NCBI GenBank assembly: GCA_900537185.1
Contig: LS999829.1
Span: 310,275-374,274 of the forward strand
Length of the DNA: 64,000 bases
Direction of reading: 5' to 3'
Source of the DNA: Cytophagales bacterium Alg240-R148
Lineage (GTDB): Bacteria; Bacteroidota; Bacteroidia; Cytophagales; Cyclobacteriaceae
Shown here: piece after piece, positions 34,630 through 39,958 of the stretch
How the letters are laid out: every line of letters begins with the position of its first letter
How positions within the stretch are numbered: position 1 is the first letter of the stretch
Translations under genes and position numbers: made by a program
Notes under the pieces: model-generated
Seen by the model: only the letters and a program-made list of their open reading frames with translations
Database searches by the model: none
What the model was told of the DNA's origin: nothing

Positions 34630-35517
34630 TCAAACTTCCACGAGCAATTTATACCCTACCCCCCGAATGTTAACAATTTTTATTTTGGGATCCATCTCTA
34701 ACTTTTTCCTTAATTTGGAAATAAATACATCCAAGGTTCTACCAACATAGTCGCCCTCGTCGCCCCATACCAAATTTAAAATCACATCCCGTTCTACTGT
34801 GGTATTGATGGCCCGGTACAGTAAAAAGAGTAAATCTGCCTCTTTACTGGTCAATTCAATTTGAGTTTCATCCAATAAAAGTGTGGTGTTTTGGCGGTTA
34901 AACTGATAGCTCCCTAAATGGATAAAGTTAGGGTCCGTAACTTTTTGTTTTCTTTTAAACCAATAAAGCAAAACAACTACTCCTACCAGTACAAAAATGC
35001 CCAAAAGCCAATAATTGGCATGGTTGCTTGTGGTGGAGGATTGGCTGGTGGCATGTTTGGTCCATTGGTTATTCTGCTCTGAAGAATCTACTAATGTGAG
35101 CAGCAACAAATAACAAGCTTTCGGTTGCACTCGGGTTTTGCAAGGTATAATGTCCTCACTTTTGGTTGCAGCTACTTCAAAACTGTAAACAACATCGAAG
35201 CTGTTACAAGACAGCACTTCCACAATGTATTCATTGGCCAATTTGGTTTGGCTCATTACCTTATCTACTGTGGCAACCAATACTTCCGGTCTGAATTCAA
35301 ACTCAGATTCAAACTGAATTTTGTATTGGCCATTGCTTTCTATTACTGGTAATATAAGAGAGGTAGTATCTTGAGCAGCAAGCATAATTTCATGGCCAAT
35401 CATCCGCAGCGCCACTTTAATATGTTTTTCGTGGTAAGAAGATTGCGCCAAGCTGTTAAAGGCTAACAAGTAGACAAATAAAAAAAAGCAACAAACAAGA
35501 CCAATAGAACGACGCAT
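34630..35517 (-). CDS. Membrane-bound winged-helix regulator with periplasmic sensor (reversed ToxR-like topology)
   Basis: 295 residues. Signal peptide or first helix ('VCCFFLFVYLLAFNSLAQ'), a periplasmic domain of about 130 residues with several Cys, one transmembrane helix (about 168-187, 'YWLLGIFVLVGVVVLLYWF'), and a C-terminal OmpR/PhoB-type winged helix (about 200-295, 'IELTSKEADLLFLLYRA', 'RTLDVFISKLRKKLEMDPKIKIVNIRGVGYKL'). In ToxR/CadC the DNA-binding domain is N-terminal; here it follows the membrane helix. It diverges from a TonB-C-like secreted protein gene, its likely target. Confidence 0.9.
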   Translation of the reverse strand: MRRSIGLVCCFFLFVYLLAFNSLAQSSYHEKHIKVALRMIGHEIMLAAQDTTSLILPVIESNGQYKIQFESEFEFRPEVLVATVDKVMSQTKLANEYIVEVLSCNSFDVVYSFEVAATKSEDIIPCKTRVQPKACYLLLLTLVDSSEQNNQWTKHATSQSSTTSNHANYWLLGIFVLVGVVVLLYWFKRKQKVTDPNFIHLGSYQFNRQNTTLLLDETQIELTSKEADLLFLLYRAINTTVERDVILNLVWGDEGDYVGRTLDVFISKLRKKLEMDPKIKIVNIRGVGYKLLVEV

Positions 35518-35556
35518 AGGACAAAGCTATTGGAATCTGGAACCAATAAGAAATGT

Positions 35557-35583
35557 TTTACACAAGATTTACATTAATTTACA
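35557..35583. promoter_or_regulatory. Three TTTACA direct repeats, candidate OmpR-type operator
   Basis: TTTACA occurs at 35557, 35568 and 35578, spaced 11 and 10 nt, in the 133-nt divergent region between the winged-helix regulator and the TonB-C-like gene. OmpR-family winged helices bind tandem direct repeats about one helical turn apart. A nearby 7-bp inverted repeat (ATTGAAT at 35619, ATTCAAT at 35630) precedes the plus-strand start. Confidence 0.6.
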
Positions 35584-35650
35584 CTAATAAGCACATTGGG
35601 AGGTGCTCCAGGGCCTATATTGAATCAAAATTCAATTATAATTTAAAGAT

Positions 35651-36457
35651 ATGAAAAAGAATATTTTGATCGCTTGTATTGCTGTACTATCGTTTGGCTT
35701 GGCTGCTTTTGAATGGGTGGACATGGAAACTAAATGTGCATTGCCCTTAGACAAATTGCCTTTCCACTACAGTGCTGTTGGCAGTTTTTTAAATAACGAT
35801 TCAACCCAAAAAACGTATTCAGACTTTTATTACGATTTGGGTACGCGTTTCCGGCCTGTTTTAAAAACGGCCATTGATGGAGCAACTTCCATACAGGATT
35901 TTCTGCCATTAGAAGAGACACAAGATGTTGTTTCTTATCGGTCCGTAGAAGTTATCATCATTGAAAACGATGTGCAAACTTCCGTGCGGGCAATGGGCTT
36001 AAGCGACGTTTTAACCACAGAACAAACGCAAATTTTGAAAACTTCTGGTTACTCCACCAATTTTTTGGTAAAAGCGGATTTTGTTGAAATGAATGGTGCC
36101 ACTGCCAAGTTAGAAAATAATTATATTACGCCACATTTAACCATTGTTCCGGAGCAACAGGCGGTCTATCGGCCTGGTAATGAAGCATTGCTCGATTTTA
36201 TCCGATCCAAGAACAAAGAAAACACAGCCAATTTGGATGAATCTAAACTGCAACCTGCAAAGCTGTATTTTACAGTCACTAAACTAGGAACCATTTCAAA
36301 TGTGCGACTCGACAGAACCACCGGTTTTGAACGCATAGATGTTACGGTGTTGGATTTGATGCGCCGTTTGCCAGGCACCTGGCAACCTGCTGAAAACCAC
36401 AAAGGGGAAAAGGTAGACCAGGAGTTGGTGTTGTCTTTGGGTATGGTAGGGTGCTAA
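35651..36457 (+). CDS. Secreted TonB C-terminal-like protein
   Basis: 268 residues with a signal peptide ('ILIACIAVLSFGLAAF'). The C-terminal ~80 residues ('LQPAKLYFTVTKLGTISNVRLDRTTGFERIDVTVLDLMRRLPGTWQPAE') follow the TonB_C pattern (g.v..v.v..SG...lD..al..l..l..w.PA). There is no N-terminal cytoplasmic/membrane anchor plus Pro-rich arm, so it is not a canonical energy transducer. Its gene diverges from the membrane-bound regulator. The role may be sensing or a periplasmic partner. Confidence 0.75.
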   Translation: MKKNILIACIAVLSFGLAAFEWVDMETKCALPLDKLPFHYSAVGSFLNNDSTQKTYSDFYYDLGTRFRPVLKTAIDGATSIQDFLPLEETQDVVSYRSVEVIIIENDVQTSVRAMGLSDVLTTEQTQILKTSGYSTNFLVKADFVEMNGATAKLENNYITPHLTIVPEQQAVYRPGNEALLDFIRSKNKENTANLDESKLQPAKLYFTVTKLGTISNVRLDRTTGFERIDVTVLDLMRRLPGTWQPAENHKGEKVDQELVLSLGMVGC

Positions 36458-38914: not shown

Positions 38915-39958
38915 ATGTCATCAAGCAATATTTTTCTTATTTTAATCAGTGCCCTTGGCGTGCTGCACGGTCTTTTTTTGGCAGTATTTCTTTGGCAATA
39001 TAAAAAAGGCAACCGCCAAGCGAACTTGCTGTTATCTGCTTTGCTTCTGGTCCTTTCTTTTAGGGTAGGGAAATCAGTCTTTTTAGAATTTGCGGAACAT
39101 TTGGATATCAAATTGATTTTTATTGGTTTGGCAACTCTAATGTCTATTGGGCCCTTGTTTTACCTTTTTGTGCAGGCGCATACCGCAAAACCATTCCAAT
39201 GGCGGCCGAGTAGGTTATTGCATTTTGTGCCTTCAGTATTGGGAATTTGTTTTGGTATTTTCATTCAGAAAGATTGGCTCGAAAGAGTGCCAATCTATTA
39301 TTTTGCCCTGGTATTTCTTGGTTATTATGGCCACTACTTGGTGTATTTATTCAAGGGATATAGTGCTATTTCCCTAGGCAAAAAAAACGGAGTTGGTACC
39401 CCTACCATTCAATTCTTAAAATTAGTTTTTGTAGGGTTGTTGTCTATTTGGTTGGTCTATGTTCTCAACTTATTCGATGAATTTGTTCCCTACATCGTAG
39501 GTCCTATTTTATATTCTGTAATTGCTTATTTGATTAGTTTTATAGTAATAAGAAAAGGATACATTGATAAGGCAGACACAATAAAATACAGAACTACCAA
39601 GGTTTCACCGCAACAAATAAAGGACATATACCAACGTTTTAGACAAGTGGTAGTGGAAGAAAAGGGATTTAAAAATCCAGATTTGACCTTAAAATCATTG
39701 AGCGCCCAACTCAACCAAAGCACCCAAGTTTTGTCGATGGTTATTAACCAAGAAACCAAAAGAAATTTTAATAGTTGTATCAATCAGCTGCGCGTGCAGG
39801 AAGCCATTGTTTTGTTACAAGATATAAAGTTCGAACAACATACTGTTGCGAGTATTGCATTTGAGGTTGGGTTCAACAGCATCAGCAGTTTTAACAAAGC
39901 GTTCAAAAAAGAAACCGCTTCTACCCCTATGGCTTATAGAAATGGCCTTACAAAATGA
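38915..39958 (+). CDS. 7TM-AraC family transcriptional regulator
   Basis: 347 residues. Seven transmembrane helices in the first ~215 residues, then an AraC DNA-binding domain (about 245-345) with two HTH motifs ('LTLKSLSAQLNQSTQVLSMVINQE' and 'HTVASIAFEVGFNSISSFNKAFKKETASTP'). Common in Bacteroidota as membrane-integrated one-component regulators. Two palindromes overlap and follow its stop codon, just before a DJ-1/PfpI gene that is the likely target. Confidence 0.93.
   Translation: MSSSNIFLILISALGVLHGLFLAVFLWQYKKGNRQANLLLSALLLVLSFRVGKSVFLEFAEHLDIKLIFIGLATLMSIGPLFYLFVQAHTAKPFQWRPSRLLHFVPSVLGICFGIFIQKDWLERVPIYYFALVFLGYYGHYLVYLFKGYSAISLGKKNGVGTPTIQFLKLVFVGLLSIWLVYVLNLFDEFVPYIVGPILYSVIAYLISFIVIRKGYIDKADTIKYRTTKVSPQQIKDIYQRFRQVVVEEKGFKNPDLTLKSLSAQLNQSTQVLSMVINQETKRNFNSCINQLRVQEAIVLLQDIKFEQHTVASIAFEVGFNSISSFNKAFKKETASTPMAYRNGLTK

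Follow-up and report, generated by a model that had tools for sequence, protein, structure and literature searches.

How are two divergent genes controlled when one encodes a predicted membrane-anchored DNA-binding protein, the other a predicted exported protein, and three copies of TTTACA lie between them? We analyzed such a pair within the window, a 64,000-nucleotide stretch of DNA from Cytophagales bacterium Alg240-R148, for which a sequence-only reading had proposed a reversed ToxR-type regulator and an exported partner. The positions given for the regulator (34630-35517, minus strand) and the partner (35651-36457, plus strand) were confirmed.

A predicted membrane regulator with a C-terminal winged helix

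The regulator gene and its predicted parts are as follows.

34630..35517, minus strand: coding sequence of the transmembrane regulator, 295 residues (open reading frame, Trans_reg_C match, AlphaFold2 model)
35446..35517, minus strand: predicted signal peptide, residues ~1-24 (hydropathy of residues 5-23)
35023..35445, minus strand: predicted periplasmic domain, residues ~25-165, with Cys104, Cys126 and Cys135 (secondary structure, predicted location)
34957..35013, minus strand: predicted transmembrane helix, residues 169-187 (hydropathy, positive charge C-terminal of the helix)
34645..34866, minus strand: OmpR-type winged helix, residues 218-291 (Pfam PF00486)

Residues 218-291 match Trans_reg_C (PF00486) in Pfam with an E-value of 2e-19. 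Hydropathy places a hydrophobic, signal-peptide-like segment at residues 5-23, with cleavage likely between SLA and QSS, and a hydrophobic helix at residues 169-187, which is followed by a basic stretch. Hydropathy and charge agree in predicting a single membrane helix with a periplasmic sensor, and the winged helix is thereby placed C-terminal to the membrane helix, as had been proposed. The AlphaFold2 model of the regulator has a mean pLDDT of 86.7, and a structure search found that it resembles the DNA-binding domains of YycF, RstA, PhoB, CadC and ToxR; among the matches listed, all were to winged helices. The periplasmic domain of ~140 residues gave no Pfam family and no sequence match in the PDB.

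This architecture is shared by the aligned regulator sequences. Trans_reg_C was found in 80/80, both hydrophobic segments are present in 78, and a receiver domain was detected in none of the 80 (Pfam, E 0.05). Some relatives may keep the N-terminal segment as an uncleaved anchor. The periplasmic domain had been described as Cys-rich; its cysteines are conserved, and the richness amounts to three residues, 104, 126 and 135. All three are jointly conserved in 74/80 aligned sequences and Cys126 is present in every one, while Cys104 and Cys135 are jointly lost in four sequences that keep Cys126. Because these two are lost together and Cys126 is invariant, the pattern suggests, without proof, a Cys104-Cys135 disulfide in the periplasmic domain.

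An AraC-type regulator is encoded close by (window positions 38915-39958). Its N-terminal half is long and hydrophobic, and it is likely membrane-tethered.

The divergent partner and its counterparts in relatives

The partner gene comprises the following features.

35651..36457, plus strand: coding sequence of the exported partner, 268 residues (open reading frame; homologues are divergent at other regulator loci)
36260..36427, plus strand: TonB_C-like domain, residues 204-259 (Pfam and structure match)
36449..36454, plus strand: C-terminal Gly-Cys, invariant in the partner family (14/14 aligned members)

Inspection of the partner sequence reveals an N-terminal hydrophobic segment and no proline-rich stretch. 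Taken alone, the window partner matches TonB_C with an E-value of 0.007, below the Pfam cut-off. The domain is matched in 14/14 aligned members of the family (best 8e-6), and the predicted structure resembles the TonB C-terminal domain with a Foldseek probability of 0.99, but an E-value of 0.04. The proposal of an exported, TonB_C-like partner thus appears sound. All 14 aligned members end in Gly-Cys at the very C-terminus, which is unusual for an exported protein.

A divergent neighbor was found at 88 of the 97 regulator loci with an identified neighbor. A hydrophobic N-terminus is present in 84/88 of these divergent neighbors, compared with 48/90 downstream control open reading frames. Several families are represented among the neighbors: a small 'KWEA' protein (24), TonB_C-like proteins (17, the window included), propellers of the Reg_prop (15) and BNR/sortilin-like (6) types, and others. 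We also considered contact between regulator and partner through a shared domain; this idea was unsupported, with profile comparison detecting no homology between the periplasmic domain and the two domains of the partner.

A phased TTTACA array in the shared intergenic region

Three putative operator boxes lie between the two genes.

35557..35562, plus strand: putative operator box TTTACA 1, on the regulator side (GTAAA at position -44 relative to the regulator ATG)
35568..35573, plus strand: putative operator box TTTACA 2 (GTAAA at position -55 relative to the regulator ATG)
35578..35583, plus strand: putative operator box TTTACA 3, on the partner side (GTAAA at position -65 relative to the regulator ATG)

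The box starts at 35557, 35568 and 35578 are spaced by 11 and then 10 nt, in agreement with the three repeats 10-11 nt apart described from the sequence. When the intergenic DNA was dinucleotide-shuffled 20,000 times, a GTAAA triple spaced 9-12 nt never arose, and a pair arose in 42/20,000. Across the 5.3-Mb genome the exact triple occurs twice, once at the array and once elsewhere, and the second occurrence does not rise above the reversed control, which is found three times. Searches of the same genome with a relaxed core and with a promoter-anchored pattern gave only control-level matches beyond the array. The regulator/partner promoter therefore appears to be the sole convincing site in the genome of the window.

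We collected relatives by searching 148 genomes from the organism's own family and by scanning genome contigs. The contig scan gave at least 584 relatives by its own criterion, many of which may match in the winged helix alone. We retained the best 80, which come almost entirely from Bacteroidota organisms or MAGs; one is labeled only 'bacterium'. Full-architecture matches (E <1e-50) were found in at least 27 of 392 sampled genomes of the phylum, a lower bound with six candidates scored per genome.

At loci picked by homology, and so of common ancestry, phased pairs of boxes occur at 54/61 loci of the window-like subfamily against 0.58 expected, and at 35/38 loci of a second subfamily against 0.28 expected. 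Frequent spacings are 10+11 for the first subfamily and 12+9 for the second; either way the sum is 21 bp. A lack of conservation in relatives had been named as a result that would count against an operator. The repeats are conserved: phased GTAAA pairs occur in 49 of 55 representatives that are less than 60% identical to one another, and triples in 31. Since the array is conserved in these distant relatives, the case for an OmpR-type operator in the shared promoter is much stronger than the repeats of the window could make it.

Two further observations concern individual genomes. The winged-helix match of the regulator beside a BNR-type gene in G083 (loci L263 and L270) contains one TAA and its array is intact; this regulator may be broken or misread. 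G153 carries another repeated element, GTAAAAAGTGTAAACCATGTAAA, with 9+9 spacing and ~8 copies with small changes, at L178 and further places.

The array is set at fixed distances from both promoters

In Flavobacterium johnsoniae the -7 element TAnnTTTG occupies positions -12 to -5 relative to the start of transcription, and mRNAs mostly carry leaders (PMC6847099). We located the corresponding elements around the array.

35522..35529, minus strand: regulator -7 element TAGCTTTG, conserved in position and spanning -12 to -5 relative to the ATG
35616..35623, plus strand: partner -7 element TATATTGA, an imperfect match to TAnnTTTG at 38 nt, counted from the first base of box 3
35595..35598, plus strand: candidate partner -33 element ATTG, inferred from position alone

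On the regulator side, the -7 element is found at -12 or -13 from the ATG in 38/55 representatives, a position that implies a leaderless regulator transcript. Of the 38 TAnnTTT[GA] sites located 10-80 nt from the nearest box on the partner strand, 31 have an offset of 26, 27, 37 or 38 nt, compared with 2.1 expected under uniform placement, which ignores shared ancestry. The element TATATTGA at 35616 is imperfect, yet it sits at exactly 38 nt, an offset also found in relatives. Thus, in both divergent promoters the array keeps a fixed distance to the TAnnTTTG -7 element of Bacteroidota.

The second subfamily keeps its partner-side distance to the -7 element at 37-38 nt and places its boxes at -41/-29/-20 from the regulator ATG (upstream regions L102-L142). 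Because these boxes lie so close to the ATG, the arrangement suggests that the effect on the regulator's own gene differs in this subfamily and is perhaps repressive.

Arrays follow exported genes to other loci

Rearranged loci separate the partner from the regulator promoter. The partner of G037 is convergent with the regulator and has its own four-box array upstream of its start, and that of G149 is in tandem with the regulator and has its own array, with the -7 element at 37 nt.

Twenty regulator-bearing genomes contain 58 arrays away from regulator promoters, 29 intergenic and 29 inside open reading frames. TTTAC reads toward genes similar to the partner families in 15/29 intergenic arrays and in 0/29 of those inside open reading frames. 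A -7 element stands at the expected offset in 10 of these 15 partner-family arrays, compared with 0/43 of the others (Fisher p 6e-8). BNR-type genes in regulator-bearing genomes are preceded by an array. In G135, where the search found no full-length regulator, neither BNR-type copy has an array before it. G074 is an exception: a full-length regulator was likewise not found there, and a BNR-type gene is preceded by an array-like site (L258), with TAGTTTTG at 26 nt.

With 15 arrays directed toward exported proteins of the partner families, several relatives seem to run small regulons. This claim rests on the relatives, because no second target was found in the genome of the window. The suggested search for TTTACA arrays in other promoters thus found them in the genomes of several relatives, and in the window's own genome matches stay at control level. 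In several relatives the array also marks exported genes elsewhere, so that the target is more than the divergent neighbor named in the proposed sensor-target loop.

Proposed mechanism and alternative explanations

We propose, as the probable reading, a transmembrane one-component activator that acts independently of phosphorylation and controls its own gene and exported partners through the three boxes. The exported N-terminal half would sense a periplasmic condition, possibly via the three conserved cysteines, and the single helix would relay the signal to the cytoplasmic C-terminal OmpR-type winged helix. The three TTTACA/TGTAAA boxes would be occupied by protomers in a head-to-tail arrangement. 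Bound regulator would activate its own promoter, where the boxes lie just upstream of the -33 region and the transcript is predicted to be leaderless, and would also activate the promoter from which the exported TonB_C-like partner is transcribed. Across the class, relatives would act likewise, with exported proteins elsewhere carrying the array in several genomes.

Activation is itself inferred, and is favored because the boxes sit upstream of -33. The regulator could instead bind the array and repress one or both promoters until a periplasmic signal relieves the repression. Protein bound to the second-subfamily boxes at -41/-29/-20 could indeed block transcription of the regulator, but the partner-side boxes, and the regulator-side boxes of the first subfamily, lie upstream of -33 at a constant distance that is typical of activators, and we regard repression as unlikely. 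A smaller chance, and a slim one, is left to another cytoplasmic response regulator of the OmpR family, for which the membrane protein would be just one target. In its favor, the winged-helix part has matches in six more proteins of the genome, and OmpR-type domains commonly use tandem direct repeats. However, the array is present at almost every copy of the regulator and follows it in distant genomes, and G135, which has other winged-helix regulators and no full-length copy of this one, lacks an array before its BNR-type genes.

It is more improbable still that the repeats are no operator at all, and serve as phased A/T-rich DNA that bends the promoter. A-rich motifs phased at about 10.5 bp would fit such a role. 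Bending would not readily account for a GTAAA sequence kept in both letters and orientation, for spacing that follows the -7 elements, or for the finding that, among the arrays elsewhere, intergenic ones alone read toward partner-family genes.

Beyond this probable activator, feedback from the partner on the regulator is a possibility. A broader picture is more speculative and, in our estimate, rather doubtful: class-wide envelope sensing by an OmpR-type protein of reversed topology, perhaps thiol-based, with a rotating set of exported proteins under one promoter grammar and a partner that reports back.

Comparison with known systems

The ToxR family comprises membrane-integrated one-component regulators that combine an OmpR-type winged helix with a sensor in the periplasm (PMC5936718). 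The window regulator is like ToxR, CadC and TcpP in its winged helix, its predicted periplasmic sensor and the lack of a receiver domain. The order is opposite, with the sensor N-terminal and the winged helix C-terminal, and since domain order is a defining feature we place the regulator outside the ToxR family. Of the proposed 'reversed ToxR-type' protein, the reversed topology is thus retained and the family membership is not.

SusR-like regulators of Bacteroides are membrane proteins that sense periplasmic ligands, have a C-terminal DNA-binding domain and control glycan use; their predicted direct-repeat sites have centers 67 or 77 bp apart (PMC3878776). The regulator shares their orientation, as far as its predicted topology goes, but its boxes are 10-12 bp apart and its domain is Trans_reg_C, a distinction drawn from their published description only. 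Response regulators of the OmpR/PhoB type share the winged helix and have tandem direct-repeat sites about 10-11 bp apart, which the putative operator boxes resemble; RprY is the nearest in NCBIfam. The window protein differs in its predicted membrane anchor and in the absence of a receiver domain, for which reason we do not class it as a response regulator. The partner shares its C-terminal domain with TonB proteins, but has an extra domain before TonB_C, no visible proline-rich spacer and the invariant terminal Gly-Cys.

We found no description of the family, the architecture or the motif in the literature searched, mostly open-access articles, and the regulator family is apparently undescribed in Bacteroidota. 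To our knowledge, few transcription factors of Bacteroidota have known sites. This work offers a regulator family for the phylum together with a putative operator and a list of likely targets. The promoter grammar of boxes, spacing and -7 element would allow targets to be predicted from sequence. The exported targets, most of which have no known function, are thereby given a shared regulatory setting that could point to the stimuli they answer.
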